From positions 1,054,001-1,118,000 of the forward strand of contig NZ_JAGTWO010000004.1 in NCBI RefSeq assembly GCF_018842675.1: a stretch of 64,000 nt of DNA, in the 5' to 3' direction. The first letter of the stretch is position 1; each line of letters begins with the position of its first letter. Below the pieces are notes generated by a model. It made no database searches. It saw only the letters and a list, made by a program, of their open reading frames with translations, and was not told where the DNA came from. Shown piece by piece: positions 11,174-62,382 of the stretch. The position numbers and the translations under genes are program-made. The stretch is from Candidatus Pantoea bituminis. GTDB lineage: Bacteria; Pseudomonadota; Gammaproteobacteria; Enterobacterales; Enterobacteriaceae.

Positions 11174-11718
11174 ATGAACACAACACATCACTATGAGCAG
11201 CTGGTTACGCTGTTTGATCGCTGCTTCAGCGACGACTTTCAGACCCGTCTAATTAAAGGCGATGACGAACCGATCTATCTTCCGGCAGATGCCGAATCGC
11301 CGTGGAACCGCGTGGTTTTTGCTCACGGTTTCTACGCCAGCGCGCTGCATGAAATCTCACATTGGTGTATTGCCGGTGAAGCACGCCGCAAACTGGTTGA
11401 TTTTGGTTATTGGTATTGCCCGGATGGCCGCGACGCGTTGACGCAAAGTCAGTTTGAAGCGGTAGAAGTGAAGCCGCAGGCGCTGGAATGGATGTTTTGT
11501 GTTGCGGCAGGCTTTCCTTCAACGTGAGTTGTGACAATCTCGAGGGAGATTGTGAGCCGGATCGCATTGCTTTCCAACGTAAGGTTCATGCTCAGGTCAT
11601 GTCTTATTTGGAGCAGGGTATACCCGCACGACCCGCGCGTTTTATTGCAGCATTAGCTAAATTTTATGGCAGGCCTTCGTTGACGGCCTCACAGTTTCCC
11701 TGGCCGGAAGATCTGTGA
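11174..11718 (+). pseudogene. epmC: EF-P hydroxylase EpmC, frameshifted as read
   Basis: EpmC (YfcM) hydroxylates the beta-lysylated lysine of elongation factor P. The N-terminal frame (MNTTHHYEQL to FCVAAGFP) and the +1-shifted C-terminal frame (FNVSCDNLEGD to SQFPWPEDL) align end to end with E. coli EpmC. The break is at 11516-11519 (CCTT): one extra C or T restores a 181-aa protein. The conserved HEISHWCIAG metal-site segment is present. The start at 11174 matches the family; an in-frame ATG at 11144 adds ten unrelated residues. A sequencing undercall is the likeliest cause. Confidence 0.88.
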
Positions 11719-11750
11719 CCTGTGAAGGCACATCAAAAAGAGGAATTGAG

Positions 11751-12032
11751 ATGATCGCAGAATTTGAAGCGCGTATTCTGGCCCTTATTGACGACATGGT
11801 TGAACACGCCAGCGACGATGAGCTGTTTGCCAGCGGTTATTTAAGCGGCCACCTCACGCTGGCTGTCGCCGAAATCGAACGACTGGATGAGCACACGCCT
11901 GAAGCATTACAGATTCACGTTACACGCAGTCTGCAGAATGCGATTGCCGCAGGCGAGTTATCACCGCGCGATCAAGCGCTGGTGGTAGGCATGTGGGACA
12001 ATCTGTTTTTGCAGGCGCGCAAATCGGCCTGA
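11751..12032 (+). CDS. yfcL: YfcL family protein
   Basis: 93-aa conserved protein of unknown function. It opens [17 protein letters not shown] and carries [17 protein letters not shown] and [10 protein letters not shown], all shared with E. coli YfcL (92 aa). ATG at 11751 follows AAGAGGAATTGAG. An upstream in-frame ATG at 11715 overlapping the epmC end gives 12 non-conserved residues and is rejected. Last gene of the prmB-aroC run. Confidence 0.9.
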
Positions 12033-12038
12033 ATATGC

Positions 12039-12056
12039 AGGGCGGCATGCCGCCCT
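12039..12056. terminator. Palindrome between convergent yfcL and mnmC
   Basis: Perfect 18-bp palindrome (GGGCGG / CCGCCC arms around CATG) right after the yfcL stop and touching the mnmC stop. It lacks an adjacent T-run, although TTTTTTACC begins about 8 bp further on. Probably a bidirectional terminator or mRNA 3' end. Confidence 0.45.
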
Positions 12057-14063
12057 CAACCCACTTTTTTACCTTTCAGCAGTTTTCTCACCCAATAACG
12101 ATTCGGATTAAGCGCTGCTAACGTAGCGGCATCTAACGGCTGCGGTTCACCTGCCAGTTGCGCCGCCAGCACTTCTGCGGCCAAAGGCGCGCTGCACAAA
12201 CCGCGCGAACCCAGCGCACCAAACAGGTAAAGTTGTGGATAATGTGGCGCATCAGCGATATCGCCATTTTGCGCACGCTGTGCCGGTAAATCCTGATATT
12301 GCGCCAGCGTGGCGGCATAGTCTGGCGCACTACCGACCATCGGTAAGTGATCGCGGGTTGCGCAACGCACGCCGATACGCGCTTCCCCGGCGCTGACATC
12401 AACCTGCTTAGCCCAGGGGCTTTCAGGCAGGCAATGAAGTAAACGCGTACGGTTTTCCTGCTGATCGGCTTCGCGATAATCAGATTCGGTTTCACCACGA
12501 CGGTAGCTGGCACCGATGCAGTGCGTGCCAAATTGCGGGCTGATCGGCGTTAAATAGCCGTCGTAACAGAGTACTGTTTGCAGCGCATCCAGTCCCGGCG
12601 TAGAAGGCACATGACTCACCTGGCCCGCCACCGCGTAAACCGGAAGCTGCTCGGTTAACGAAAAGTCCGTTAAGGCGTGTCCACTCGCCAGCACCACAGT
12701 GTGATGCTGCACTGCAGCAGAATCAGCAAACTGTAACGTCCAGCTTTCTTCCTGATAAGACATATCAGTCACACGATGCAGCCAGTGAATCCGCAAGCCT
12801 TGTTCTTCACCGCGAGCCAGCATCGCGGCAGTCAACTCTGCAGGGGAAAGCCAGCCGCCTTGCGGATAAAAATCCCGCCGCAGCCCAACGGTAGATTGGC
12901 CAACGCTTCAGCCTGCTGTTGATCCACGCCATGCGCTAACGCATCGGGCAAGGCCATCTTCAGCATCTGGTCAATTTTCGCCGCGCTTTTTTCATCCCAT
13001 CCCAGTTGCAACACGCCGCTCCAGCTGTGCTCATATTGAACCGGTAATTGATCGTATAAACGACGTGCGAAACTGAAAGCGGCAGGGAAAAAGGTCGCAA
13101 GTGCGGGATCGTGTTGATTGAGCAACGGATAAAGCGCGCCCTGACGGTTGCCTGACGCGCCCAGCGCGGGCGCGTCATCGGCGCAGTAAAGCGTTACGCG
13201 CCAGCCTCGTCGCAGCAAAGCCAGCGCCAGCGTCGCGCTGGCTACGCCGCCACCGATTAATGCGATCTCTCGCTGTCGCGCGGCGGGTCGAGAATACCAG
13301 GGTTGGCGCACAGGTAGCGCGGGTGCGGCCGCGAGTTGACCGCTTAGCATTTCGCGTTTAGGTCCAAAACCTTTGCGTCGCGTGACGGCGAAACCGGCGT
13401 CTTGTAATCCACGACGGACAAAACCAGCGGCGGTAAACGTGGCAAACGTGCCGCCATGCCGTAGCAATGTTGCCATGGCGTTAAACAGCGCTGGCGTCCA
13501 CATATCGGGGTTTTTCGAGGGGCAAAGCCATCCAGAAACCACGCATCAACCTGACGATAAAGGCTGTCATCGAGGCTATGAATTAATGCATTAATATCGC
13601 CTAACCACAGGTCAAGGGTAATGCGTCCGCCATCAAAAAGCAGGCGCTGACAGCCGGGCAGAGCGATCGGCCATTGCTGTTGCAATTGTTCTGCCCACGG
13701 GGCGAGTTCAGGCCAATGCCGCAGTGCCGCGATTAAATCATTCTGCGTTAAAGGAAATTTCTCAAAGCTAATGAAATGCAGACGCTGCAATCTGGCATTG
13801 GGTTGCTCAATGCGAAATGCCTCAAAGGCTTGCCAAAGCGTAAGAAAATTGAGCCCGGTACCGAATCCACTCTCAGCAACGATCAATAAATCTCGCTCAT
13901 GATGGGCGAAACGCTGTGGAAATTGGTTGCCACCAAGGAAGACGTAACGCGTCTCTTCAAGGCCGTTATCGTTAGAGAAATAGACATCTTCAAAGGCTCG
14001 GGAAACAGGTGTACCCTGTTCATTCCAGCTTAGTTCGGCGTGTTCGACCGGCGTTGATTTCAC
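12056..14063 (-). pseudogene. mnmC: Bifunctional tRNA modification enzyme MnmC, two frameshifts as read
   Basis: MnmC completes mnm5(s2)U34 in tRNA: an FAD-dependent C-terminal domain removes the carboxymethyl group and the N-terminal domain methylates the product. The methyltransferase part opens [20 protein letters not shown] and contains [13 protein letters not shown]. The oxidase part has the FAD fold [18 protein letters not shown] and ends [14 protein letters not shown]. The frame shifts at the G4 run 13519-13522 and again at the A5 run 12868-12872. One extra base in each gives 669 aa against 668 in E. coli. Divergent from fabB. Confidence 0.9.
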
Positions 14064-14139
14064 GGCAAAGGCTCATTTTTCAGGCAGTGGCGCGATTTTA
14101 GCGACCAGCGTGACATGACGCAAATTTACAAAAGGAAAT

Positions 14140-14180
14140 GGCTGATCGGACTTGTTCGGCGTACAAGTGTAAGCTAGAGT
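14140..14180 (+). promoter_or_regulatory. fabB promoter with FadR and FabR sites
   Basis: 14140-14156 (GGCTGATCGGACTTGTT) matches the FadR activator site. 14158-14175 (GGCGTACAAGTGTAAGCT) matches the FabR palindrome. A -35 TTGTTC (14152-14157) and -10 TAGAGT (14175-14180) with 17-bp spacing put FadR over the -35 and FabR between the hexamers, as described for E. coli fabB. Confidence 0.7.
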
Positions 14181-14217
14181 GCACGTCAATCCAAAAGATG
14201 TGGAAGAGGACTATTGA

Positions 14218-15438
14218 ATGAAACGTGCGGTGATTACTGGCTTGGGGATCGTTTCCAGTATTGGTAATAATCAGCAAGAGGTGCTGGCATCTCTGCGTGA
14301 AGGCCGTTCTGGCATCACATTTTCTCAAGAGATGAAAGATTCCGGCATGCGTAGTCACGTCTGGGGTAACGTTAAGTTAGATACCACCGGCCTCATCGAT
14401 CGCAAAATCGTGCGTTTTATGAGTGATGCGTCCATCTATGCTTATCTTTCCATGGAAGAAGCGATTAAAGATTCTGGCCTGACCAACGAAGCCTATCAGA
14501 ACAACCCACGTGTGGGTCTGATTGCCGGTTCAGGTGGCGGTTCTCCGCGTTATCAGGTGTTCGGCGCAGACGCAATGCGTAGCCCGCGTGGCCTGAAAGC
14601 AGTAGGTCCGTATGTCGTGACTAAAGCGATGGCGTCAGGCGTTTCAGCCTGTCTGGCTACACCTTTCAAAATTCACGGTGTGAACTACTCAATCAGCTCT
14701 GCCTGTGCGACCTCTTCACACTGTATCGGTAATGCGGTTGAGCAAATTCAGCTGGGCAAACAAGACATCGTGTTTGCTGGCGGCGGTGAAGAGTTGTGCT
14801 GGGAAATGTCCTGCGAATTCGACGCCATGGGCGCGCTTTCTACCAAATATAATGAAACGCCTGAAAAAGCTTCTCGTACCTATGACAACGACCGCGATGG
14901 CTTTGTTATCGCAGGCGGCGGCGGCATGGTTGTGGTCGAAGAGCTGGAGCACGCGCTGGCACGTGGCGCGCACATCTACGCTGAAATCGTAGGCTACGGC
15001 GCAACATCCGACGGCGCAGACATGGTTGCACCATCAGGCGAAGGCGCAGTGCGCTGCATGAAGATGGCGATGCAGGGCGTTGATACCCCGATCGATTATC
15101 TGAACAGCCACGGTACTTCAACGCCAGTGGGCGATGTGAAAGAGCTGGGTGCAATCCGTGAAGTGTTCGGTGATAACACGCCTTACATTTCTGCAACCAA
15201 AGCCATGACCGGTCACTCATTGGGTGCAGCGGGCGTGCAGGAAGCGATTTATACCCTGCTGATGCTGGAGCACGGCTTTATTGCGCCAAGCATTAACATC
15301 GACTCGCTGGATGCAGCGGCAGAAGGCATGAATATCGTGACTAAGCCGACTGAAAAAGCGCTGAAAACCGTTATGTCTAACAGCTTCGGTTTCGGTGGCA
15401 CCAACGCGACTCTGACGATGCGTAAGTATCAGGCTTAA
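14218..15438 (+). CDS. fabB: 3-oxoacyl-[ACP] synthase I (FabB)
   Basis: Condensing enzyme KAS I, which elongates acyl-ACP with malonyl-ACP and is needed for unsaturated fatty acid synthesis. 406 aa, the E. coli length. Active-site Cys163 (SSACATSSH), His298 ([11 protein letters not shown]) and the second His in [11 protein letters not shown] are all visible, as is the C-terminal [12 protein letters not shown]. Divergent from mnmC. A FadR/FabR-type promoter lies upstream and a terminator downstream. Confidence 0.97.
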
Positions 15439-15460
15439 GGTTTCACCTCATCTTTACCTC

Positions 15461-15487
15461 AAGGGTCGGCTTGCCGGCCCTTTTCTT
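15461..15487 (+). terminator. Intrinsic terminator of fabB
   Basis: GC-rich stem GGGTCGG / CCGGCCC with one G-T pair and a tight CTTG loop, then TTTTC. Confidence 0.8.
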
Positions 15488-15582: not shown

Positions 15583-15636
15583 AACCAACGCATAAATCTT
15601 CTGTTACGACAGAAGGCGCGCGCGTCGTTGGTTTTT
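15583..15636 (+). repeat. Nested inverted repeats in the yfcJ leader
   Basis: Outer arms AACCAACG (15583-15590) and CGTTGGTT (15626-15633) enclose an inner hairpin CTTCTGT / ACAGAAG (15598-15604 / 15609-15615, loop TACG). The outer right arm runs straight into a T5 tract. It could be an attenuator or a terminator upstream of yfcJ; function is inference. Confidence 0.5.
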
Positions 15637-15673
15637 GCCGTCATGGCACGTCTCAGAACAAGGAGTTACGTTA

Positions 15674-16857
15674 ATGTCCTCTTCAGCCGCTGAATCGCAA
15701 GTTCAGTCGACCTTTCCTTTGGCTTGCACCTCGCTGGCCGTATTCCTGACTTATCTCACTGCGGGCCTGGCTTTGCCGGTTATCCCGCTCTATGTGCATC
15801 AAGAGTTAGGAATGAACAACGTGATGGTGGGCATCGCGGTTGGCATTCAGTTCTTTGCCACTTTGCTCACGCGGGGTTTTGCCGGACGTCGAGCCGATCA
15901 GCATGGCGCAAAACTCACCACGCAACACGGCATGTTAGCGATAGCCTTAGTGGGGCTGGCTTACCTCGCTGCTGCGCTGCTGCCGGTGCCAATAGAGGCG
16001 AAGTTCGGCTTGCTGTCGATAGGTCGTTTGCTGCTCGGCTTTGGCGAAAGCTTGCTGCTGACCGGGAATCTGACATGGGGCATGGGTTTAGTTGGGCCAA
16101 AACGTTCTGGTTTGGTGATGTCATGGAACGGCATGGCGATTTATGGATCGCTGGCAGCGGGCGCGCCACTCGGCTTATTGCTGCATCAGCAAGGGGTTTT
16201 GCGCTGTTGGGCGCGGTTGCCGTCGTGCTGCCGCTGATTGCGCTGGGGTTGAATAATTGGATCAAAGCCGTGCCGGTTGTCGGCGGCGAGCGGCCTTCGC
16301 TGTTCAGCGTGGTACGCAGCATTTTTCAGCCGGGGCTCGCGCTCGCGCTGCAAGGTGCCGGTTTTGCGGTGATCGGTACTTTTACCTCGCTCTATTTTGT
16401 TGCACAACACTGGGGCAATGCGGGCTTTACCCTTACCGCATTTGGCCTGGCGTTTGTGCTGGTGCGTCTCCTTTTTGGTGGCTTGCCGGATCGGTTGGGT
16501 GGCGTAAAAGTGGCGATGATTTCGCTGCTGGTGGAAGCCTGCGGATTGCTATTGCTGGGACTGGCAACGCAAAGTTGGATGGCATTAATGGGGGCTGCTT
16601 TGACCGGCTGCGGTTGCTCACTGATCTTTCCGGCGCTGGGCGTAGAAGTGATTAAACGCGTTTCTCCGCAGGTGCGCGGCACCGCGCTTGGGGGCTTTTC
16701 TGCATTCCAGGATGTCGCTTACGGAGCCAGCGGGCCGCTCACCGGATTGCTGGCGACCGCGCTGGGTTACGGTTCTGTCTATTTGGCAGGTGCGTGCTGC
16801 GCGGTACTCGGGATTTTAGTTACCTGGCGCTTTGCGCGTCAGCCGCAAACAGCTTAG
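15674..16857 (+). pseudogene. yfcJ: MFS transporter YfcJ, frameshifted as read
   Basis: Major facilitator superfamily efflux-type permease related to E. coli YfcJ (392 aa). The first frame ([25 protein letters not shown], motif [21 protein letters not shown]) ends abruptly after LLLHQQG. The next frame continues with [13 protein letters not shown] to RFARQPQTA. One missing base in GGGGTTTT (16193-16200) explains the break and would restore 394 aa. ATG at 15674 follows AAGGAGTTACGTTA. Its last 38 bp overlap the convergent MocR-type gene. Substrate unknown. Confidence 0.88.
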
Positions 16858-18254
16858 CCAGCTTGTCACATCCGGCAACGATTTCGCCGGGTGTGAGAGC
16901 AGAAAAGCCCAGTAGCCAACCTGGCTGTCGAATATCACTGGTATATAACGGGCTTAGCCTCGGCAGTTGCAATCCTGCTTGCGCGGCGAGGTTGGTCAGC
17001 CTCGCTTCATCTCCCTGCTTCAGTGATACCGCCATTTGCAAGCCGCCTGTGCGGGCCATTGGCGTGATCCACGGCGCAAGGCGCTGCTCAATTTGCTCTA
17101 TTAGCAGGTCGCGGCGACTGCGATAAAGCTGCCGCATCAAACGCAAATGGCTGGTGAAGTGACCTTGCTGCATAAACTCGGCGGTAATCGCTTGCGGCAA
17201 CAGGGCGCTGTGTCCATCCATGACGCTGCGCGCCTGACCGAGAGGTATCACCAGTTCAGGGGTACCACCATCCAGGCCAGCCTCAGTGAAGGAAACAGTG
17301 ATTTTGAAAACGTCCCTAGCGTGATGACGCGACTATGCGAATCCAGTCCTTGCAGCGCTGGCGTTGGGCGTTCGTCATAGTGAAATTCACTGTCGTAATC
17401 ATCCTCAATTAGCCAGCTGCGATGACGTCGCGCCCAATCAAGCCAGGCTAAACGGCGCGCTAAACTCATGGTCACACCCGTTGGATAATGATGCGCAGGC
17501 GTCAGATACATCAACTTTGCTGCCCCGGCCTGAAGTTTCGCGCCTTCCTGATCCAGCGCAATGCCGCGACAGTTTGCACCTGCCGCGAGAAAAGCATTAC
17601 GCGCGCCGGGATAGCCCGGTTCCTCCAGCCAGACTTCATCACCCGGATCGAGAAACATCAGCGCCAGCAGCTGTAGCGCCTGCTGTGAACTGGTGAGAAT
17701 GATCACCTGTTCGGGTTGGCAATGTATGCCACGCGACAAGGCCAGATAATCTGCCACCGCATGGCGTAAAGGCTGATAACCCAGCGGATCGCCGTAACCC
17801 ATCACCGCGCTGCCAAGCGAACGCTGCACAGTGGCGCTGATTCGCCGCCAGATTTGCTGAGGAAAGGCGCGAAGTTCTGGCGAACCGGCGGCAAAAGCCT
17901 GTGGAAAGAGCGGATCCTGGCAACCCCGGTTGCTAATACACGGTTACCGCGCAGGGAGAAGTGGGGCAGTTGCGTTAACGCCGTGCTGCGCGCTTTATTG
18001 GGCATGGTGATAGCCACAAAACTGCCGCGCCCGATTTCACGTCGTAAATATCCTTCGCTTTCCAACTGCGCGTAAGCCGCTTCCACCGTCACACGCGACA
18101 GGTTTAAATCCGATGCCATTTGTCGCGTCGAGGGCAGCTTTTGATCCACGGACAAATGGTGATTCGCTATCGCCAGACGCAGCGTGGCGCACAAACGTTC
18201 ACGCAGTCCACCCGACGCTTGATGATGGAAAAGTTGCAGCAGCGGTGTGCTCAT
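16820..18254 (-). pseudogene. MocR/PdxR-type PLP-dependent transcriptional regulator, two frameshifts as read
   Basis: GntR-family HTH fused to a class I aminotransferase-like domain. The N-terminal HTH (about 37-70) has KLPSTRQMASDLNLSRVTV. The aminotransferase part shows YGDPLGYQPLR, LEEPGYPGA, IEDDYDSEFHYD and the PLP-lysine segment GTFSKSLFPSLR. Frames switch at CC 17916-17917 and at the G4 run 17259-17262; one base added at each gives about 478 aa. It is divergent from a rhodanese-like gene, which is its likely target. Not part of the E. coli yfcJ-flk interval, so it looks lineage-specific. Confidence 0.82.
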
Positions 18255-18341
18255 ATTGGTCTTATTGTGAGAGATAAATGGGTATCAATGATCAGTCCAC
18301 TTTGCCGTAAACTGGCTGCACTTCACAACAGGAGAATCACC

Positions 18342-21474: not shown

Positions 21475-21905
21475 TTAACTCAGCCAGCTGCCCATGGGCA
21501 GCGTCACGTCCAGCAAGCGGTCAAAGGCGTAAAACAGCGTCAACCCCATGATCACGCCGGAAAGCGCTGCCGCCCACCAACGTGCACCAAACAGCATGCC
21601 GATGCCAAACGTCAACAACGTGGTGCAGAGCGCGAAACCCAGTGTTTCAAACAGCCAGCCATACAGCATCAGCATCAGCGCCAGTGCGACTAAACGCTTT
21701 AATGTGCCCTGAGTAGGCCATTGAATGGTGTCTGGTTTACGAAACAGCATCAGCAGGGCGCAGATCGCCATCAAACCCAAAATCGTCAGGGAAAAGGGCG
21801 CGGGCCAACCGGTTCGTAGCTGTATTCGCTCTGAATTTGCCAGGCTATCACCATGCCGCCGAGGCAAAGTGCAAGCCAAATAGCCGCAAAAATACGATCG
21901 CTCAT
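21475..21905 (-). pseudogene. tctB: Tripartite tricarboxylate transporter small subunit TctB, frameshifted as read
   Basis: Small membrane subunit of the TTT transporter. Reading back from the intact C-terminal frame (LTILGLMAICALLML to LPMGSWLS), the true N-terminus lies in another frame from ATG 21905: MSDRIFAAIWLALCLGG, then IAWQIQSEYSYEPVGPRPFP and a stop. One extra base in the G3 run 21789-21791 joins the two into a 143-aa protein with the PRPFPLTILG junction expected from Salmonella TctB (144 aa). ATG 21908 is an alternative start. 12 bp downstream of tctC. Confidence 0.88.
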
Positions 21906-21917
21906 CATGTGCTCCGG

Positions 21918-26042: not shown

Positions 26043-26821
26043 ATGACTTCACAAATCATTTACCAGGCGCCAGTTGATGCCAATGCGCTGCGCTACTTCT
26101 TTCGTTTTGAGCAGGCCAATGCGCAAACCGAATATTTGCCGCACGCGCATAGCTGGGGCCAGGTGATCTTTGTGAAAAGTTATGTGCTGGAGATGCGGGT
26201 AGAAGGTGAACGGCTGCTCACGCCTGCCGACATCCCTATCTGGATCCCGCCGGGGCTGGTACACAGCAGCTATAATCATCGGCAGGCCCAATTTCGCACC
26301 TTTAACCTGGCCGCCGATCTGTGTGAAGGGTTGCCGATCAAAGCGTGCTTGCTGATTGTCGATCCGATCGTGCACGCCATTATGGATGAATTCGCCCGAG
26401 AGGAAATTGTGCTGCCTGTCAGCGACGAGCAGTTACGGCTGTGTAATGTACTGCGCGACCGCTTGCGTCTCGCAGCCGTTCAGGAAAGCTATTTGCCTAC
26501 GTCGGAAGATAAATTTTTGGCGCCAGTGCTGCACGCGCTGGAAGCCAACCCCGGTGATAACACGACGCTAGCAGCGTGGGCGGCCCGCGTTTTTACCACA
26601 GAACGCACGCTGGCGCGCCGCTGTCATCAGCAGCTCAATATGTCATTCAGCGAATGGCGTCAGCGGCTGCGTTTTTGCGGGCGATTGCGCTGCTGGAGCA
26701 GGGCAACAGCGTGCAATCTATTGCTCACGATCTCGGATATAGCTCCGCTTCTGCGCTGATTGTCATGTTTCAACATCAAGCGGGCACCACGCCCGATCGC
26801 TACCGCACGCGGTTAGGCTAA
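26043..26821 (+). pseudogene. AraC-family regulator (cupin plus HTH), frameshifted as read
   Basis: N-terminal cupin-like sensor (LPHAHSWGQVIFV, IPIWIPPGLVHSSYN) and C-terminal AraC HTH. The frame breaks inside the HTH at the T5 run 26672-26676. One extra T joins SEWRQRLRF to LRAIALLEQGNSVQSIAHDLGYSSASAL, giving 259 aa. This architecture is typical of regulators of adjacent EamA or MFS exporters. The exporter lies divergently with symmetrical repeats between, supporting local control; effector unknown. Confidence 0.85.
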
Positions 26822-28206: not shown

Positions 28207-29217
28207 ATGTCTGACGGCTGGAATATTGCGCTATTAGGCGCAACAGGCGCAGTAGGGAACGCTTTACTGGAGCTGCTGGCTGAACGCCAGTTCCCGGTTG
28301 GAGAATTGTATTTGCTGGCGAGTGAAAACGGCGCAGGTGAAACTAAACGTTATGAAGGCCGTTCTGTTCTGGTTCAGGACGCGGCAGGTTTTGACTGGTC
28401 ACAAGCGCAGTTGGCGTTTTTTGTAGCCGGTCGTGAAGCCTCTTCGCGCTATGCAGATGAAGCCGCTAACGCGGGTTGTTTGGTTATCGACAGCAGCGAA
28501 CTGTTTGCGTTGTCACCAGACATTCCGCTGGTAGTGCCAGATGTGAATGCGCACGTTTTGGCGGATTACCGCAATCGCAACATTATCTGCGTGGCCGATA
28601 GCCTGGTCAGCCAGTTGCTTACCGCGCTCAAACCGCTGACTGACGCCGCCGGTTTAGGCCGCTTGCAGGTAACAAATTTGATTTCGGTTTCCAACCACGG
28701 CAAAGCGGCAGTGGATGCATTAGCGGGTGAAAGCGCGCGTTTGCTAAATGGCGTCCCGGCAGATAACCATTTTTATGGCCGCCAGCTGGCCTTTAACTTG
28801 CTGCCACAACAGGCCGATGCCGAAGGCAGCGTGGAGAGCGAACGTCGTCTGATCGATCAGGTACGTAAAGTACTGCAAGACGAAGGCTTACCGATTGCGG
28901 TCACCAGCATTCAGGCGCCGGTGTTTTATGGCAACGCGCAAATCGTTCATGTTGAGAATCTGCGTCCGCTCTCTGCGGAAGAAGCGCGTGCTGAACTGGC
29001 GCTCACCGCTGATATCATCCTGAGCGAAGAAGATCAGGTGCCAACGCCTGTCACCGATGCATCAGGCAACAATGAATTAAGCATTGGCGGCGTGCGTAAC
29101 GATTACGGTATTCCTGAACTGCTGCAGTTTTGGTCAGTCGCCGATAACGTCCGTTTTGGCGGTGCGTTAATGGCGGTGAAAACGGCGGAAAAGCTGGTGC
29201 AGGAGTATATGTACTAA
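28207..29217 (+). CDS. usg: USG-1 protein, aspartate-semialdehyde dehydrogenase homolog
   Basis: 336-aa paralogue of Asd with an N-terminal NADP-type fold ([17 protein letters not shown]) and the C-terminal ending [21 protein letters not shown]. Where active Asd has its nucleophilic Cys (SNC-x-T type motif), this protein reads ADSLVSQL, so the thiol is missing and dehydrogenase activity is unlikely. E. coli Usg shows the same substitution. Function unknown. The stop overlaps the truA start (TAATG), so the two are coupled. Confidence 0.92.
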
Positions 29218-30019
29218 TGTCCGACAGTCAGACACAAAAACTGGCGCTCGGCATTGAGTATGACGGCAGCCGCTATTACGGCTGGCAGCGTCAGCAAGAA
29301 GTGCGCAGCGTGCAGGAAAAGTTAGAACGTGCGCTGTCAAAAGTGGCCGATCATCCGGTCACTGTTTTCTGCGCCGGACGCACCGATGCTGGCGTGCACG
29401 GAACCGGTCAGGTCGTGCATTTTGAAACCACATCGCAACGTGCTGACAGCGCATGGACGTTGGGCGTTAACGCCAATTTACCTGCAGACATCGCGGTGCG
29501 TTGGGTAAAATCGGTGCCGGATGAGTTTCATGCGCGGTTTAGTGCAACCGCCCGTCGCTATCGCTATCTGATATACAACCAGCGCTTGCGTCCGGCCGTG
29601 CTGAGCCGCGGCGTGACACATTTTTATCATCCGCTGGATGCTGAAAAAATGCAGCGTGCAGGGCAATGTTTACTGGGGAGAATGACTTCACCTCATTCCG
29701 CGCGGTGCAGTGTCAGTCTCGTACGCCATGGCGCAACATGTTGCACCTTAACGTGACGCGTCAAGGGCCGTATGTCATCGTGGATATCAAGGCCAACGCC
29801 TTTGTGCATCATATGGTGCGTAACATTGTTGGCAGCCTGATGGAAATTGGCTGCGGCAATCAGCCAGAATCGTGGATGGCTACGCTGCTGGCAGCCAAAG
29901 ATCGCACGCTGGCGGCGGCGACAGCCAAAGCTGAAGGGCTTTATCTGGTGGCGGTGGATTATCCATCCCACTTTGCGTTACCACAGCCGTCGATGGGACC
30001 GTTGTTCCTCGCGGATTAA
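29217..30019 (+). pseudogene. truA: tRNA pseudouridine(38-40) synthase TruA, frameshifted as read
   Basis: Makes pseudouridine at positions 38-40 of tRNA anticodon stems. Catalytic Asp57 lies in [13 protein letters not shown] (Asp60 in E. coli). The frame breaks after AGQCLLG at the G4 run 29675-29678. With one more G it continues [15 protein letters not shown] to [10 protein letters not shown], giving 267 aa (E. coli 270). Conserved [15 protein letters not shown] lies in the second part. TruA is conserved and its loss costly, which favours a read error. Confidence 0.9.
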
Positions 30020-34129: not shown

Positions 34130-34614
34130 ATGATCTGGATTGATTACGTCATTATTGCGGTAGTTGGTTTTTCGGCTCTGGTCAGCCTGGTTCGCGGGTT
34201 TGTCCGGGAGGCCTTATCTCTCGTTACCTGGGGATGTGCGTTTTTTGTCGCCAGTCATTATTACGCCTTTCTTGCAGTCTGGTTTACAGGTTTTGACGAC
34301 GAACTGGTTCGTAACGGTATCGCCATCGGTGTGCTGTTCGTTGCTACCCTAATAGTGGGCGCGATCGTGAACTACGTTATCGGCACGCTGGTAGAAAAAC
34401 CGGCTTGTCGGGAACCGACCGAGTATTGGGCGTCTGTTTCGGGGCGTTGCGTGGTGTGCTGATCGTAGCCGCTATGCTTTTCTTTCTCGATACATTCACG
34501 GGGTTTTCAAAAAGCCCCGACTGGCAACAGTCTCAACTCGTTCCCCAGTTCAGTTATATAATCAGGTGGTTTTTTGATTACCTGAAAAGCACGTCGAGTT
34601 TTTTACCCCGGTGA
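34130..34614 (+). pseudogene. cvpA: Colicin V production / membrane protein CvpA, frameshifted as read
   Basis: Four-helix inner-membrane protein needed for colicin V export and envelope robustness. The first frame (MIWIDYVIIAVVGFSALVSL to NYVIGTLVEK) breaks at the A5 run 34395-34399. One extra A continues TGLSGTDRVLGVCFGALRG to STSSFLPR for 161 aa (E. coli 162). First gene of the PurR-controlled cvpA-purF-ubiX unit. Its intact promoter and full-length halves argue for a read error. Confidence 0.9.
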
Positions 34615-36274: not shown

Positions 36275-36843
36275 ATGAAACGACTCATCATTGGCATCTC
36301 GGGTGCAAGCGGCGTGATTTATGGCGTGCGCATGTTGCAGGTTTTGCAGCAGGTCGCTGAGGTGGAAACGCATTTAGTGATGAGCAATGCGGCGCGCCAA
36401 ACGCTGGGTTTGGAAACCGATTACAACGTACGCGAAGTACAAGCGCTGGCTAATGTGGTGCATGACGTGCGCGATATTGCGGCAAACATCTCTTCAGGAT
36501 CGTTTAAAACGCTTGGCATGGTCATTCTGCCATGCTCAATGAAAACCTTATCTGGCATTGTTCACAGCTACAGCGACTCCTTGCTAACGCGCGCTGCCGA
36601 TGTCGTACTCAAAGAGCAGCGCAAGCTGGTGTTATGCGTACGCGAAACGCCGCTGCATGTCGGTCATTTACGCATGATGACCACCGCCGCTGAACTTGGT
36701 GCGATCATCATGCCGCCGGTTCCCGCTTTTATCATCGCCCCGTTACGATTGATCAGCTCGTAGATCAAACAGTTAACCGTGTTATTGACCAGTTTGACAT
36801 CGAATTACCGCACGATCTCTTCACGCGCTGGCAAGGTGCATAA
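36275..36843 (+). pseudogene. ubiX: Flavin prenyltransferase UbiX, frameshifted as read
   Basis: Makes prenylated FMN, the cofactor of UbiD in ubiquinone synthesis. Starts MKRLIIGISGASGVIYGVR with the FMN-binding GISGASG. SSGSFKTLGMVILPCSMKTL and RETPLHVGHLRMM are conserved. The frame breaks after PPVPAF at the T4 run 36727-36730. One extra T continues YHRPVTIDQLVDQTVNRVID to FTRWQGA, giving 189 aa, the E. coli length. Annotation without the repair would end early at 36763. Confidence 0.9.
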
Positions 36844-36854
36844 GATTAATTAAT

Positions 36855-37039: not shown

Positions 37040-37102
37040 GATTAATTTGCGCAAACACATCACGTAGCACATAACAAAAAGCACTTCACTTGAGGGTAAT
37101 CT

Positions 37103-37884
37103 ATGAAAAAGCGTGTTCTGGCTCTTTCTCTGATGCTGGGCTTGACCAGCGCCGCCAGCGTGTTCGCCGCGGTGCCGGGTTCAATCCGTATTGGAACTGA
37201 TCCAACTTACCCGCCGTTTGAGTCGAAAAACGCGCAAGGACAGTTAGTCGGCTTTGATATCGATCTCGCCAACGAAATCTGTAAACGTATCAACACCAAG
37301 TGCACCTACGTTGAAAGCGATTTTGATGCGCTGATCCCATCGCTGAAAGCGAAAAAATTGATGCCATTATCTCTTCACTTTCCATCACAGCTAAACGCCA
37401 GGAAGAAATCGCCTTTTCTGAAAAGTTGTATGCCGCTAACGCGCGTTTAGTCGCGCCGAAAGGGTCAACTATTCAGCCGACTATTGATTCGCTGAAAGGC
37501 AAAAACATTGGTCTGCTGCAAGGCACCACGCAGGAAACCTACGCCAATGAAAACTGGCGTGCGAAAGGCGTTACCGTAACGCCTTATGCTAATCAGGATC
37601 TGGTTTATCAGGATCTGAATGCAGGCCGCATCGATGCCGCTTTCCAGGACGAAGTGCAGGCGAGCGAAGGTTTCCTGAAACAACCGGTTGGTAAGAATTA
37701 CACCTTTGCGGGTCCAGCAGTGAAAGATGACAAAATCTTTGGTGTAGGCACCGGTATGGGCTTGCGCAAAGATGATGCCGAGCTGAAAACCGCCATCGAC
37801 AAAGCTGTCGATGAGATGCGCAAAGATGGGACTTACGACAAAATTGCTAAAAAGTACTTTGATTTCAATGTATACGGTGACTGA
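37103..37884 (+). pseudogene. hisJ: Basic amino-acid periplasmic binding protein (HisJ/ArgT type), frameshifted as read
   Basis: Periplasmic receptor for histidine or lysine/arginine/ornithine. Signal peptide of about 22 residues ([20 protein letters not shown]). Ligand-fold motifs are [49 protein letters not shown] and the end [11 protein letters not shown]. The frame breaks after SLKAKK at the A6 run 37352-37357; one extra A restores [20 protein letters not shown] and 260 aa. Features mix HisJ and ArgT, and only one such receptor is present here, whereas E. coli has both. The symbol is therefore tentative. Confidence 0.85.
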
Positions 37885-38006
37885 GTAAAACCTGTCTACT
37901 TTATCCCTGGTTCTTTGTGACACCGACGAATTGGCTGTGCTCCATCCTCTCATGATCCACGAGGCTAAGCGCACCAACCGTCTGTGATACTGATTACCGG
38001 GATAAA

Positions 38007-38032
38007 GCTGCCCGCAATGAATGGCGGGCAGC
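38007..38032 (+). repeat. Intercistronic hairpin between hisJ and hisQ
   Basis: Nine-bp perfect stem GCTGCCCGC (38007-38015) / GCGGGCAGC (38024-38032), 8-nt loop, no T-run. In Salmonella a REP element occupies the same spot and keeps hisJ expression above hisQMP. This hairpin could act likewise. Confidence 0.6.
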
Positions 38033-38065
38033 TATCCGTTTTCACCCCATGACAGGATCATTTTC

Positions 38066-38752
38066 ATGCTGTATGGCTATTCTGACGTAATTCTTAGAGG
38101 CACCTTAGTCACGCTGGAGCTGGCGCTTAGTTCAGTGGTGCTCGCGGTTGTCCTTGGACTGCTAGGCGCAGGCGCTAAAGTCTCTCGCAATCGTCCATTA
38201 GCGATGATCGCTAATGGCTACACGACCTTGATTCGTGGTGTTCCAGACCTCGTTTTAATGCTGCTGATCTTCTACGGTTTGCAGATCGCTCTTAACCAAC
38301 TCACCGATGCACTCGGACTAAGCCAGTTTGATATCGATCCGATGGTGGCCGGTATTATTACGCTCGGCTTTATCTACGGCGCTTACTTTACCGAAACCTT
38401 CCGTGGCGCATTTTTAGCGGTGCCAAAAGGGCAAATAGAAGCGGCAACGGCATTCGGTTTTACCGGTTCGCAGGTTTTCCGCCGCATTTTGTTCCCGGCG
38501 ATGATGCGCTATGCGCTGCCTGGCATTGGCAATAACTGGCAGGTGATTTTGAAAGCGACGGCGCTGGTGTCGCTGCTCGGACTGGAAGACGTGGTTAAGG
38601 CTACACAGCTAGCGGGCAAAAGCACCTGGCAACCGTTCTATTTTGCGATTGTCGCTGGGGTGATTTATTTAGTGTTTACCACACTGTCGAATGGTGTGTT
38701 GTGGTGGCTGAATCGCCGCTACACGGTGGGTGTTAAAAGGGCAGAGTTATGA
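38066..38752 (+). CDS. hisQ: Histidine/lysine/arginine ABC permease HisQ
   Basis: Membrane subunit of the basic amino-acid importer, 228 aa from ATG 38066 (AGGATCA upstream), the E. coli length. A longer frame from 38021 starts inside the preceding hairpin. About five membrane helices. The ABC-permease EAA loop reads EAATAFGFTGSQVFRRILFP, and RGVPDLVLMLLIFYGLQIAL precedes it. Overlaps hisM by 4 bp (ATGA). Confidence 0.95.
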   Translation: MLYGYSDVILRGTLVTLELALSSVVLAVVLGLLGAGAKVSRNRPLAMIANGYTTLIRGVPDLVLMLLIFYGLQIALNQLTDALGLSQFDIDPMVAGIITLGFIYGAYFTETFRGAFLAVPKGQIEAATAFGFTGSQVFRRILFPAMMRYALPGIGNNWQVILKATALVSLLGLEDVVKATQLAGKSTWQPFYFAIVAGVIYLVFTTLSNGVLWWLNRRYTVGVKRAEL

Positions 38753-39464
38753 TTGATATTATTCAGGAATACTGGAAAGCGCTGCTCTGGACTGATGGTT
38801 ATCGTTTCACCGGCGTGGCGATCACGCTGTGGCTGTTGATCCTTTCGGTCGTGATTGGCGGTTGCCTGGCCGTGTTGTTAGCCATTGCGCGCGTCTCGCC
38901 AAACCGTTGGGTAAGTACGCCGGTGTGGCTGTTCACGTATATCTTCCGCGGCACACCGCTTTATGTGCAGCTGCTGGTATTTTATTCCGGCATGTATACG
39001 CTGGAGATTGTGAAAGGAACTGAGCTGCTAAACGCTTTTTTCGTAGCGGGCTGAACTGTACGTTACTGGCTTTCACGCTGAATACCTGCGCTTACACCAC
39101 CGAAATTTTTGCCGGGGCTATTCGTTCCGTGCCGCATGGTGAAATTGAGGCCGCGCGTGCTTACGGCTTTTCAAATTTCAAATTGTATCGCTGCATCATT
39201 CTGCCTTCTGCGCTGCGCACCGCTTTACCGGCCTACAGCAATGAAGTGATTTTGATGCTGCACTCCACGGCGCTGGCGTTTACCGCCACGGTTCCCGATT
39301 TGTTGAAAGTGGCGCGTGATATCAACTCCGCCACCTATCAACCCTTTACCGCATTTGGTATTGCCGCCGTGCTTTATCTGATTATCTCTTACGTGTTGAT
39401 CAGCTTGTTCCGCCTCGCGGAGCGTCGCTGGCTGGCGCACGTGAAACCCTCTTCATCGCATTGA
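38749..39464 (+). pseudogene. hisM: Histidine/lysine/arginine ABC permease HisM, frameshifted as read
   Basis: Second membrane subunit, partner of HisQ. The first frame runs MIDIIQEYWKALLWTDGYRF to ELLNAFF and then stops. The shifted frame carries RSGLNCTVLAFTLNTCAY, IRSVPHGEIEAARAYGF (EAA loop) and ends HVKPSSSH. The break is the T6 run 39036-39041; T7 gives a continuous 238-aa protein, identical in length to E. coli HisM. Annotators may miss the 39055-39128 stretch. Confidence 0.9.
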
Positions 39465-50211: not shown

Positions 50212-50811
50212 TTACAGCGGCGTGTCCTGTGAAATTTCATCCAGCGACAGGCTGAAGCTAGGAATGAACACCTCTACAAAATAATCCATTTCTGGCGAAC
50301 GGCGCTGCGCTAACGTTTTTTCCAGCCGTGCTTTCGCCAGTAAAAACTCATTGTTACCTGCAGATAACTCCTCCAGGCATTTTACATAGGCGCAAAGTGC
50401 GTCCGCCTGCTTTACTACCGCTTGTTCTTCAGCGCCATGCAGATGTTCATCAATCAGCGGGCGGTAAATGTCCTGGAACTCTGCCGGCAGCATTTCAATC
50501 AGTTTTTGCTGTGCAATTTTCTCAATTTTTTTATATTCATGGGCAATCTGCGCATTGTAATACTTTACTGGCGTGGGCAAGTCGCCAGTTAATACTTCAC
50601 TCGCATCGTGATAAAGCGCCAGCATTGCAATGCGATCTGCGTTGAGATTGCCATTAAATTTTTTATTTTTAATGACAGCCAAAGCATGCGCCACCATGGC
50701 TACCTGCAAGCTATGCTCGGAGACATTTTCCGTGCGCACATTGCGCATTAACGGCCAGCGATTGATGAGTTTGAGTCGGGAAAGATGAGCGAAAAAATGG
50801 CTTTGAGTCAT
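50212..50811 (-). CDS. yfbR: 5'-deoxynucleotidase YfbR
   Basis: HD-domain phosphohydrolase that removes phosphate from 5'-dNMPs. 199 aa from ATG 50811, the E. coli length and N-terminus ([17 protein letters not shown]). The longer frame to 50913 lacks homology. Metal site: His in [16 protein letters not shown], the HD pair in [19 protein letters not shown], and Asp in [12 protein letters not shown]. Downstream of alaA on the same strand, 70 bp apart. Confidence 0.94.
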
Positions 50812-50881
50812 GAATGATCCTGTTTGCAGGCAGGGGAAAGACCAGCTTTCCCCGAAATAGAAACAGTATACGCGGGCGTGA

Positions 50882-52099
50882 TTACTGACGGTAGCCTTGC
50901 AGGAATCGGCCAAATTTATTGATCGCCATCTCTAGATCGTCAACGCGTGGCAGCGTCACGATACGAAGATGATCTGGCCAAGGCCAGTTAAAGGCGGAGC
51001 CTTGTACTAACAACACCTTTTCTTGCAGTAAAAAATCCAAAACCATTTTTTGGTCGTCAAAGATATTGAATTTTTTTGCATCAATACGCGGGAACATGTA
51101 AAGCGCACCTTGCGGCTTCACACAGCTGACGCCGGGAATATCATTAATGAGTTCCCAGGCACGCTGGCGCTGCTCATATAAACGTCCGCCCGGTACAATA
51201 AATTCGCTGATGCTTTGGTAACCGCCTAATGCAGTCTGAATGGCATGTTGTGCCGGAACGTTGGCACACAGGCGCATAGACGCAAGCATCTCCAGCCCTT
51301 CGATATAGCCTTTAGCATGCTTTTTCGGACCGTTTAATACCATCCAGCCTTGGCGGAAACCGGCAACGCGATAGGTTTTAGAGAGTCCGTTAAAAGTTAC
51401 GGTCAGGAGATCGGGTGCCAGCGCAGCGATTGAGTGGTGTTGCGCGTCGTCGTAGAGAATCTTGTCGTAGATCTCATCAGCGAAAATAATCAGGTTATGC
51501 TGACGCGCGATTTCAACCACTTCCAGCAGCAACTCTTTGCTGTATACCGCACCGGTAGGGTTATTCGGGTTAATAATCACAATACCGCGAGTACGCGGCG
51601 TGATTTTGCTGCGAATATCGTCCAGATCAGGAAACCAGCCAGCTGACTCATCACAAAGATAATGCACTGCTTTTCCGCTGGATAGCGACACAGCCGCTGT
51701 CCATAACGGATAATCGGGTGCAGGCACCAGCATTTCATCGCCACTGTTTAGCAGCGCTTGCATGGCCTGAACAATCAGTTCAGAAACGCCATTGCCGATG
51801 TAAATATCCTCAACCGTAACGTCTCGCATATCACGCGCTTGATAATGCTGCATGATGGCTTTACGCGCTGAATAGAGACCTTTGGAATCACAATAGCCTT
51901 GTGAGCTAGGCAAGTTGCGGATGACATCGACCAGAATTTCGTCAGGTGCCTCAAAGCCGAACGGTGCTGGGTTACCAATGTTCAGCTTAAGGACTTTGTT
52001 ACCTTCTTCTTCGAGACGCTTAGCTTCTTTTAAGACCGGACCGCGAATGTCATAGCAAACATTTTCCAGCTTTCCGGATTTATCAATTTGAAAAGTCAT
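50882..52099 (-). CDS. alaA: Glutamate-pyruvate (alanine) aminotransferase AlaA
   Basis: Class I PLP aminotransferase making alanine from pyruvate and glutamate. 404 aa from ATG 52099 (GGCGGTAATA upstream), matching E. coli AlaA (405). The longer frame from 52177 has a non-conserved leader. Motifs: [57 protein letters not shown] and the PLP-Lys in [14 protein letters not shown]. Divergent from lrhA across about 960 bp. Confidence 0.95.
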
Positions 52100-52701
52100 T
52101 ATTACCGCCTTTATGGGCAGAATCCTTTTACCTGCCACTGAAATCAAACCAGCACAATGTACTCTCCTGCTGAACACAAAAGAAGGGTGCTAACCGGTTT
52201 TGGCGCGTTAAGCATCTTTTCATGCGAGCCGTGGCGCAAAAAATATTCTCAGTCGTTTAATTTAGTCAAATGAACTAATAATATTGTTTTATTTGGCATT
52301 TTTAACCAAGTAGTAAAAAGGGGCTGTAAAGTCATTAATCCAGATTTTTAATAGTGAATTTGCCATTTTCAATTTTTAAAAAAGGCTTGAGTAAGATAGA
52401 TGCCAATTGAAATAGTTAAGCGATATTGCATTGATGGTTGTTTTGTGAGCAGTGGTGAATTGGTGCACTTATGTAATGTGATTTACAGCTGGTAATTATT
52501 GTCATTCATGCAGTGAATAACCAGAATTGTACGCTGTCGTAAGGTCCAGCGCGGGCGTAGCAAGGAAGACTTTAGGCATGTCTTCTCACTTTGTTTGTTT
52601 TTTCAGAAATGAAAAGGTTAAAAAATAGCCAGTAGTGTGGCAGGATAGGTGAGAAAGGGGTTACAACAAAATTTACAGCGCTTTTCACAAAAACATTTCC
52701 A

Positions 52702-57690: not shown

Positions 57691-57692
57691 TT

Positions 57693-58207
57693 ATGCACGA
57701 TCAACACATTGCCGTTAAAACGATCGACCCAAACGAGGTCTTCGTGCTGAGCGCGGAAGAGCATCACGCCATCGAGCACGAGAAACATCATTATGAAGAT
57801 GCGCGCGCCGCGTCCATCGAAGCGCTGAAAATCGTGCAAAAGCAGCGCGGTTGGGTGCCGGATGGTGCGATTCACGCCATTGCTAAGGTGCTGGGAATTC
57901 CGGCCAGTGACGTGGAAGGCGTGGCGACTTTTACAGCCAAATCTTTCGCCAGCCGGTGGGCCGCCATGTGATTCGTTATTGCGACAGCGTGGTCTGCCAT
58001 ATCACCGGTTATCAAGGTATTCAGGCTGCGCTGGAACAGAACCTGAGTATCAAACCGGGACAAACTACCGCAGATGGCCGCTTTACATTGCTGCCAACCT
58101 GTTGTCTCGGCAATTGCGATAAAGGGCCGACCATGATGGTGGATGAAGATACCCACGTTCACTTAACGCCGGAAGCTATCGCCTCATTACTGGAGCAGTA
58201 TCAATGA
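57693..58207 (+). pseudogene. nuoE: NADH-quinone oxidoreductase subunit E, frameshifted as read
   Basis: 24-kDa-type subunit holding [2Fe-2S] N1a. The frame breaks after EGVATF at the T4 run 57929-57932. One extra T gives [20 protein letters not shown] and continues to [14 protein letters not shown], 171 aa (E. coli 166). Cluster ligands lie in [11 protein letters not shown] and [11 protein letters not shown]. The N-terminus is slightly longer than in E. coli. The end overlaps nuoF by 4 bp. Confidence 0.92.
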
Positions 58208-59550
58208 CAATCAAACAGATCATTCGTACTGCCGAAACGCATCCGCTGACCTGGCGCATGCGCGAGGATAAGCAGCCGGTATGGCTTGAAGAATATCGCA
58301 GCAAAAATGGCTACGCTGGCGCAGAGAAAGCGCTAAATAGCATGGCGCCTGACGAAATTGTGGCGCAAGTCAAAGATTCTGGTCTGAAAGGACGCGGCGG
58401 TGCAGGCTTCTCTACCGGCTTGAAATGGAGCTTGATGCCGAAAGATGAGTCCATGAACATCCGTTACCTGCTGTGTAACGCCGATGAAATGGAACCCGGC
58501 ACGTACAAAGATCGCCTGTTGATGGAACAGATGCCACATCAGTTGGTGGAAGGCATGCTGATCAGTGCTTTCGCGCTTAAAGCCTACCGTGGCTACATCT
58601 TCCTGCGCGGTGAATATATTGAAGCCGCAGTGAATCTGCGCCGTGCCATTGCGGAGGCCACCGAAGCTGGTTTCCTTGGTAAAAATATTCTCGGCACCGG
58701 TTTTGATTTTGAGTTAATTGTTCACACCGGCGCAGGACGTTACATCTGTGGCGAAGAAACGGCGCTGATCAACTCGCTGGAAGGTCGTCGTGCTAACCCG
58801 CGTTCTAAGCCACCTTTCCCTGCCAGCGCGGGTGCATGGGGTAAACCGACGTGTGTTAACAACGTTGAAACGCTGTCGAACGTGCCAGCCATCCTCGCCA
58901 ACGGCGTAGAGTGGTACAAAGGCATTTCGAAAAGTGACGATGCTGGCACCAAGATGATGGGTTTCTCCGGTCGCGTGAAAAATCCAGGCGTTTGGGAACT
59001 GCCGTTTGGCATTACCGCTCGTGAAATTCTCGAAGATTATGCTGGCGGCATGCGCGATGGTTTGCGTTTCAAAGCCTGGCAGCCAGGCGGTGCGGGCACT
59101 GACTTCCTGACCGATGAGCATCTCGATCTGCCGATGGAGTTTGCCAGTATCGGTAAAGCGGGCAGTCGTTTAGGAACGGCGCTGGCGATGGCGGTCGATC
59201 ACGAAATCAACATGGTTTCGCTGGTACGCAACCTGGAAGAGTTCTTTTCGCGTGAATCGTGCGGTTGGTGTACGCCTTGCCGCGACGGTCTGCCGTGGAG
59301 CGTGAAAATCCTGCGTGCGCTGGAGGAAAAGCAAGGCCAGCCGGGGGATATCGAAACCTTACTGCAGCTTTGCCGTCAGTTGGGCCCAGGCAAAACCTTC
59401 TGCGCACACGCGCCGGGTGCCGTTGAGCCGCTGCAAAGCGCGATTAAATATTTCCGTGAAGAGTTTGAAGCCGGCATTGCGCCGCAGGTGTTTGGCAATA
59501 CCCGTTCAATCGGTGGTATCCAGCCAAACCTGCTGAAAGCACGCTGGTAA
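58204..59550 (+). CDS. nuoF: NADH-quinone oxidoreductase subunit F
   Basis: NADH-oxidising subunit, 448 aa. FMN/NADH site [20 protein letters not shown], then [14 protein letters not shown] and [15 protein letters not shown]. [4Fe-4S] N3 ligands lie in [11 protein letters not shown] plus a downstream Cys in [10 protein letters not shown]. Overlaps nuoE by 4 bp. Tandem hairpins follow before nuoG. Confidence 0.97.
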
Positions 59551-59585
59551 TTCGCCGCAGCACACGGAACCAGGCCTTGCGCCGC

Positions 59586-59639
59586 TGTTCCTGACGCGTT
59601 CAGGAACAAGAATATGATTAACGCTCGTTTCTGACGAGC
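59586..59639 (+). repeat. Two tandem hairpins between nuoF and nuoG
   Basis: TGTTCCTGA (59586-59594) / TCAGGAACA (59600-59608) and GCTCGT (59623-59628) / ACGAGC (59634-59639), each with a 5-nt loop. No T-run, so probably mRNA processing or stability elements rather than terminators. Confidence 0.5.
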
Positions 59640-59659
59640 CTTACGGAAGCATGTTCACT

Positions 59660-62382
59660 ATGGCTACAATCCATGTAGACGGTAAAGAGTATGATGTGAA
59701 CGGAGCGGACAACCTGTTGCAGGCTTGTCTCTCTCTGGGCCTTGATATTCCTTATTTTTGCTGGCACCCGGCGCTGGGAAGCGTGGGCGCCTGCCGCCAA
59801 TGTGCGGTGAAGCAATTCCAGAATGCCGAAGATACCCGCGGCCGCCTTGTCATGTCCTGCATGACACCGGCTTCTGACGGCACCTTTATTTCTATCGACG
59901 ATGGCGAAGCCAAAGAATTCCGTGAAAGCGTGGTTGAGTGGTTGATGACCAACCACCCGCACGATTGTCCGGTATGTGAAGAGGGCGGTAACTGCCACCT
60001 TCAGGACATGACCGTGATGACCGGCCATAGCTTCCGTCGCTACCGCTTCACCAAACGTACCCATCGCAATCAGGATCTCGGCCCCTTCATTTCTCATGAG
60101 ATGAACCGCTGTATTGCCTGTTATCGCTGCGTGCGTTACTACAAAGATTATGCGGATGGCACCGACCTCGGTGTGTACGGCGCACATGACAATGTCTATT
60201 TCGGTCGCCCGGAAGATGGCACGCTGGAAAGCGAATTCTCCGGTAACCTGGTCGAGATCTGTCCGACCGGCGTGTTCACCGATAAAACGCATTCAGAACG
60301 CTATAACCGTAAATGGGACATGCAGTTCGCGCCTAGCATCTGCCAACAATGCAGCGTCGGCTGTAACACCAGCCCTGGCGAGCGTTACGGTGAATTACGT
60401 CGTATTGAAAACCGCTATAACGGTACGGTAAACCACTACTTCCTGTGTGACCGTGGCCGTTTTGGTTATGGCTACGTCAATCTCAAAGATCGCCCACGTC
60501 ATCCTGTCCTGTTACGTGGCAATGATTGGGTCACGCTCAATGCTGAGCAAGCGGTCAACGCGGGTGCTGACGTATTACGCCAGGCGAAGAAAGTGATCGG
60601 CATCGGTTCACCACGCGCAAGCGTCGAAAGCAACTTTGCGCTGCGCGAACTGGTGGGTGCTGAAAACTTCTCTACCGGCATGCCAGCAGGTGAGCAAGAA
60701 CGTCTTGAACTGATGCTGAAAGTATTGCGTGAAGGCGGAATCTACACGCCAGCGCTGCGCGAAATAGAAAGCTATGATGCCGTGCTGGTGTTGGGTGAAG
60801 ATCTGACCCAAGTCGGTGCTCGCGTTGCGCTTTCTGTGCGTCAGGCGGTAAAAGGCAAAGCGCGTGATATGGCCGCAGCACAGAAAGTTGCTGATTGGCA
60901 AATCGCCGCCATTTTGAATATCGGTCAACACGCTAAGCATCCGCTGTTCGTGACTAACGTTGACGAAACTCGCCTTGATGATATTGCGGCGTGGAGTTAT
61001 CGCGCGCCGGTTGAAGATCAGGCGCGTTTAGGCTTCGCAATTGCCAATGCGCTGGATGAAACCGCGCCAGTGGTCAGCGATTTTGACAAGAGCCTGAACG
61101 GTAAACTGGATGTTGTCGTGCAGGCATTGGCTGGCGCGAAAAAACCGCTGATTATTTCGGGCACCCATTCAGGCAGCACCGCAATGATTGAAGCCGCTGC
61201 CAACGTCGCTAAAGCGTTGAAAGCGCGCGGCGCCGATGTTGGCATTACCTTGCTGGCTGGACATGCGAACAGCATGGGACTGGGCTTGATGGGCGGTCAG
61301 ACGCTGGACAGTGCGCTGGAACAGCTGCGTAATGGTGAAGCTGATACGCTGGTCGTGCTGGAAAACGATCTCTATCGCCATGCGCCTAAAGCGCTGGTGG
61401 ATAATGCTTTGTCCAACGCAACCAACGTCATCGTGGTCGATCATCAACGTACAGCAACGCTGGAAAAAGCGGGTTTAGTTTTCTCTACCGCGAGCTTTGC
61501 TGAAAGTGATGGCACCTCGATCAACCATGAAGGTCGCGCTCAACGCTTCTTCCAGGTTTACGATCCGGCCTACTACGACAATAGCATCGTGATGCTGGAA
61601 AGCTGGCGCTGGCTGCACTCGCTGCATAGCACACTGGAAAGCCGCCGCGTTGACTGGACCCAATTAGATCACGTCATTGATGCAGTAGTGGCCAAGCTGC
61701 CGCAGCTGAAAGGCATTAAAGATGCGGCACCTGATGCGAGCTTCCGTATTCGTGGTCAGAAACTGGCTCGTTCTCCGCACCGCTCAAGTGGACGTACTGC
61801 TGCACGCGCCAATATTAACGTGCATGAACCACGTCAGCCGCAAGACAAAGACTCTATGTTTGCCTTCTCTATGGAAGGGAATAACCAGCCATCAGCCGCA
61901 CGCTCGCAGATTCCCTTTGCCTGGGCGCCGGGTTGGAACTCACCGCAGGCGTGGAACAAGTTCCAGGCTGAAGTGGGGGCAAATTGCGTAATGGCGATCC
62001 AGGTGTACGTCTGTTTGAAGCCAGCGAAGCGCAATTGCCGTGGTTCAGTACGGTGCCTGCTTCCTTCGTAAGCAATGATGGATGGCGTGTTGCGCCTTAC
62101 TATCAACTGTTCGGTAGCGAAGAGATGTCACAGCGTTCGCCAACCTTCCAGAAGCGGATGTCACAGCCGATGCTGGTGATTAACCCGGACGATGCAGCGA
62201 AACTGGGCGTGAACAATGGCGCAGCCGTTGAGTTCACCTGTTTCGGCGAAACACTGCGTCTGCCGGTACGTTTTTCAACCGCGCTGCAAGCAGGGCAGGT
62301 GGGTCTGCCGCTGGGTATGCCGGGCGTTCCGCCATTCCTGGCAAACGGCCAAATTGACAAACTGCAGGAGGCGGCGCAATGA
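59660..62382 (+). pseudogene. nuoG: NADH-quinone oxidoreductase subunit G, frameshifted as read
   Basis: Large 75-kDa-type subunit, 907 aa after repair (E. coli about 908). ATG at 59660 (GGAAG about 10 bp upstream) starts [16 protein letters not shown] 59651 is too close to the SD. N1b: [19 protein letters not shown]5/N4: [34 protein letters not shown]7: [11 protein letters not shown]. The frame breaks at the G5 run 61975-61979 after FQAEV; G6 continues [20 protein letters not shown] to DKLQEAAQ. The end overlaps nuoH by 4 bp. Confidence 0.93.

Follow-up and report, generated by a model that had tools for sequence, protein, structure and literature searches.

Does the assembly of Candidatus Pantoea bituminis describe an organism that is losing conserved genes, or conserved genes that were read one base short? 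The question arises from a window of 64,000 nucleotides, by which we mean the whole stretch of DNA analyzed here (bases 1054001-1118000 on a contig of 4.0 Mb, the genome totalling 5.22 Mb in five contigs). The original prediction, made from the letters of this window, held that thirteen of its genes are broken by fifteen single-base losses resulting from systematic undercalling of homopolymers. The nearest relatives of the genome are species of the Pantoea/Mixta group within the Erwiniaceae, and gene order relative to them is kept across nearly the whole window. A search of a plasmid collection with the first 25 kb returned 15 records of 60-80% identity, with no near relative found there. Completeness of the assembly was 95.96, compared with at least 98 in 56 of 60 other genomes of the genus; a further assembly of the same genus, G004, reached 94.

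The fifteen breaks and the genes that carry them

Breaks were located by frameshift-tolerant alignment of proteins to DNA, using intact orthologues from genomes of the same genus as queries and permitting one- and two-base losses as well as one-base gains. The reference genome G032 alone recovered 13 sites, located in epmC, mnmC (two), the MocR-like gene (two), the AraC-type gene, truA, cvpA, ubiX, hisJ, hisM, nuoE, and nuoG. Likewise, G041 alone recovered 13, adding yfcJ and tctB and lacking the two MocR sites, for which it offers no comparison as the gene is absent from the compared G041 stretch. Combined, these two references cover all 15 sites, and every one of them is a single missing base with respect to intact relatives, with no gain among them; the expectation that repair always takes one added base was thereby borne out. 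A run with five references revealed 12 sites directly and those in tctB and nuoE via antisense open reading frames (ORFs), yfcJ being outside its coverage. On DNA level, gaps at the sites are visible against one to six relatives per site, in the case of yfcJ against one. The aligned share of the G032 reference amounts to 0.99-1.00 for the broken genes, lengths being compared with relatives from the genus. At several sites the relatives differ from one another at the position of the missing base and do not give its identity.

The first affected gene is epmC (11174..11716, forward strand; one break near 11513-11519), named after the Pfam EpmC match of its G032 orthologue. It is followed by mnmC (12062..14065, reverse strand) with two breaks in the runs 13519-13522 and 12868-12872, the second of which coincides with a gap in G004 in the DNA alignment. 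A yfcJ-like MFS transporter gene (15610..16854, forward; one break near 16193-16200) is compared with a single reference, G041. A MocR-like regulator gene of the PdxR family (16840..18255, reverse) is broken in the runs 17924-17927 and 17259-17262. The former is a CCCC run and lies about 10 bases from the place first proposed (17916-17917), the one predicted coordinate found to be off. Next are tctB (21478..21909, reverse; one break near 21788-21795), named from Pfam TctB on the G041 orthologue, and an AraC-type regulator gene identified to family level (26043..26819, forward; run 26672-26676).

The remaining genes all lie on the forward strand and carry one break each: truA (29217..30011; near 29675-29678), cvpA (34130..34612; run 34395-34399), ubiX (36275..36847; run 36727-36730), a hisJ/argT-like binding protein gene (37102..37881; run 37352-37357), hisM (38748..39461; run 39036-39041), nuoE (57692..58204; run 57929-57932; named from the G041 orthologue), and nuoG (59660..62380; run 61975-61979). 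Family searches on the orthologues back 12 of the 13 gene names; for yfcJ, family matches of the downstream half, the sole part searched, stayed below the cut-offs. The binding protein at 37102..37881 scores 464.4 bits for ArgT and 460.4 bits for HisJ, both above their own cut-offs, ArgT thereby fitting about equally well.

Background noise, flanking regions, and dependence on homopolymers

The specificity of the procedure was assessed from the flags raised elsewhere. The run with five references produced 22 lines for the window, 14 at the sites and eight representing noise, and the run with G041 yielded 19 events in 56 genes, 13 at the sites and six representing noise. Flags away from the sites comprised, among others, gains at 2418, 2560, 19861, 50929, and 52968 and losses at 6002, 6166, and 52912; the G032 run also flagged both an alternative start and an alternative end of a hisQ-like ORF (37949-38752) and an antisense ORF. 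By eye, we attributed the flags outside the sites to alternative starts, to ORFs that are antisense or of low identity, or to the fusion of two window genes in one G041 ORF. This fusion concerns 50216-52177, where two adjoining genes of the window correspond to one 654 amino acid ORF in G041, the sequences differing by one base where the two genes meet. The other references read the region as two genes, and the single ORF is possibly an error in G041.

Under the same procedure, the control genomes G032, G059, G031, and G015 gave 8, 3, 5, and 6 flagged lines, respectively, with 67,623 to 72,084 coding bases covered per genome. Among them were losses of one base close to the start of a gene (three lines in G032, two in G015), together with paired shifts, stops, and antisense ORFs; by eye, all appeared to be noise from start choice or antisense reading. 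Within the matching stretch of these four genomes, no internal loss of the type found in the window was seen. Counting of one-base DNA differences revealed the same asymmetry, with 25 clean losses and 8 gains in the window versus G041 and 20, 16, 17, and 17 losses opposed to 8, 11, 12, and 10 gains versus G032, G059, G031, and G015. The good genomes among themselves are near balance (11 and 11 for G041 versus G032).

Extension of the analysis to 120 kb on each side of the window (118 genes, 144,471 aligned coding bases, G032 as the one reference, with events near protein ends omitted) revealed 24 one-base losses, three two-base losses, two one-base gains, and seven stops. The genes hit by 22 of the 24 one-base losses have an identity of at least 75%; of these 22 losses, 17 have a run of at least four no more than 10 bases away, compared with about 18% of random positions. 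Together, the 15 losses of the window and the 22 of the flanks occur in about 201 kb of coding sequence, which by extrapolation would correspond to approximately Q37 for homopolymer losses and to several hundred falsely broken genes genome-wide. Also in the flanks, the orthologues of the RcsC sensor kinase and the RcsD phosphotransferase (in G032 at L153:4848-7700 and L153:8394-11099) show a one-base loss each, which we take to be the same artefact.

The breaks were further analyzed with respect to runs of identical bases. With the intervals as predicted and that of MocR slightly widened, 12 of 15 touch a run of at least four, while 1.39 would be expected for 15 random coding intervals and 12 or more were obtained in none of 20,000 trials. 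After correction of the MocR position and inclusion of the AAAA run that adjoins the break in tctB, 14 of 15 sites are located at such a run, the exception being epmC with a run of three. For the sites in epmC, tctB, and yfcJ no single long run is indicated, and each was assigned to one of two adjoining runs by our own choice.

Considering the implied run length, i.e., the broken run as read plus one base, the fraction of coding runs lost rises with length and is higher for G/C than for A/T. Among A/T runs, 1/396, 3/128, 3/48, and 2/7 were lost at implied lengths of 4, 5, 6, and 7, and among G/C runs 0/112, 5/15, and 1/1 at lengths of 4, 5, and 6, so that at an implied length of five a third of the G/C runs (5/15) stands against 3/128 of the A/T runs. 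Pooling of all bases with unadjusted coordinates showed an equal tendency to rise, with 2/1972, 1/508, 6/141, 4/49, and 2/7 for lengths 3 to 7. Most broken runs are four or five bases long as read, and six of the 15 consist of G or C. The higher loss among G/C runs than among A/T runs of equal length could reflect a bias of the base-caller or some modification of DNA in the lineage. G/C runs of at least six are absent from the window and occur once in the 240 kb of flanks. Their frequency per 100 kb is 9.5 in G041, 1.2 to 10 in the other references, and zero in G004, the contrast being weak toward G032 (1.2 per 100 kb).

Essential genes, ribosomal RNA, and selection

The genes rpoB, metG, leuS, ileS, and rpoC are indispensable. 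In the genome under study, rpoB is split by a loss adjoining an A run, whereas it is whole in G041, G032, and G004. The gene metG is split as well, and both places at which it lost a base are affected in G004 too, while it is whole in G041 and G032; a second copy of rpoB or metG did not come up in the genome. One loss was found in leuS and two in ileS, one of the latter being common to G004, while rpoC is whole here and carries a two-base loss in G004.

Ribosomal RNA genes show the same type of defect. A six-G run of the 16S gene is one G short in all seven copies of the genome, one of them being two short, and equally one short in all seven copies of G004, but complete in 21 of 21 copies from G041, G032, and G059 (seven each; at least six G in G059). 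A five-G run of the 16S gene is short in one of seven own copies and in seven of seven of G004. Within the 23S gene, one G run is short in 3/7 own copies, 5/7 of G004, 1/7 of G059, and 0/7 of G032, and another in all seven copies of both the genome and G004, whereas no copy from G032 or G059 is short there. All these defects in rpoB, metG, leuS, ileS, 16S, and 23S were found on the contig hosting the window. The rRNA copies of G059 carry scattered indels among themselves, and its 23S copies display 13 substitution columns versus four in G032.

G004 itself produced 31 flagged lines. Of these, 19 one-base and two two-base losses are backed by two or more references, and one of the remaining 10 combines a gain with stops within an upstream extension. 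Some of its short runs are shared with the genome under study (metG, ileS, mnmC, and rRNA). G004 proved to be error-laden itself, and the conclusions are independent of it as a reference.

Selection on the broken genes was evaluated by comparison of the window with G041, giving a dN/dS of 0.041 for intact genes; in broken genes it was 0.052 up to the first break and 0.070 beyond it. In all three classes, differences at third positions predominate. Purifying selection acts on both sides of the breaks, in agreement with the normal conservation claimed for both halves. Median identity is 0.922 for the broken and 0.943 for the intact class, a difference that is not significant (p = 0.22) for a broken class of n = 16 that includes four spurious ORFs and in which MocR is absent. 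Relaxed selection was not detected in the broken genes, although very recent breaks would look alike.

Explanations and consequences

Taken together, we consider it very probable indeed that the fifteen breaks are consensus errors with undercalled homopolymers, from long reads that lacked adequate short-read polishing. In such an assembly, the base-calling or consensus step would render runs of identical bases one base short, and the frame of otherwise normal genes would shift. The losses-only pattern, the dependence on run length, the hits in essential and rRNA genes, the intact selection, and the four relatives free of such breaks all conform to the original prediction in this respect. Three observations point the other way, namely the sites in epmC, tctB, and yfcJ with no single long run indicated, the dN/dS after the breaks, slightly above that of intact genes in a class including a few spurious ORFs, and the short runs common with G004, some of them rRNA runs that lack a base in each of the seven copies of either genome. 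True inheritance of those rRNA losses that are present in all copies is possible, but the losses varying among rRNA copies and the broken essential genes mean that an artefact is needed in any case. For any site taken singly, the correct sequence is inferred, and a minority of the breaks could be genuine.

Genuine gene decay, be it in an eroding genome or in a mutator strain with recent homopolymer slippage, would place breaks in runs as well, these being natural slippage hot spots. Real slippage yields gains as well as losses, however, and no gain is found among the fifteen. Furthermore, decay would be expected to spare essential genes, yet rpoB and metG came up solely as split copies and leuS and ileS are broken too, and it fits neither the purifying selection on both sides, nor the variation among rRNA copies, nor a genome of 5.2 Mb without reduction, making it highly improbable. 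Alternatively, the short runs could be real, with transcriptional slippage or ribosomal frameshifting restoring enough product there, a rescue that has been described in insect endosymbionts at poly-A tracts. The location in runs, in metG, ileS, and mnmC partly at the same places as in G004, would suit such a rescue, but runs mostly of four or five bases, six of them G or C, would not; slippage is beyond helping rRNA genes with the same defect, and reading frames are complete in the remaining relatives of the comparison. We assign this explanation only a minimal likelihood. It is hardly more than conceivable that both this organism and G004 truly possess short runs, some of them in common, and tolerate very many frameshifted genes, including metG and ileS, via pervasive slippage at homopolymers, the G runs of rRNA being truly shorter by one base in this lineage.

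Undercalling of homopolymers, in turn, is a well-described artefact. According to the Homopolish report, residual errors of nanopore-only assemblies are mostly homopolymer indels that shift frames and inflate pseudogene counts, with 151-5298 pseudogenes for Racon-Medaka on R9.4 data (PMC8011154). The frame-shifting indels are the same here; the cases described there include gains too, unlike the fifteen losses of the window, and for the present genome we infer the platform, nanopore being the likeliest. For long-read assemblies of small genomes, the Kastor description names gene-fragmenting deletion errors after one-base runs and lowered completeness estimates (PMC12007338). There as here, deletions after runs are found via comparison with reference genomes, Kastor additionally using reads of the target where we used assemblies alone. 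As far as described in these two sources, nanopore assemblies match our pattern, which supports the reading of the breaks as artefact.

Working copies of the affected genes are almost certain in the organism, and gene loss is consequently not to be read from this assembly. Taken at face value, it would suggest that complex I, TruA, UbiX, the uptake of basic amino acids, and RNA polymerase itself have been lost, and any pathway reconstruction, pseudogene count, completeness score, or gene-absence call drawn from it carries a bias. G004 calls for equal caution, as false shared losses may arise from the combination of these two congeneric genomes.
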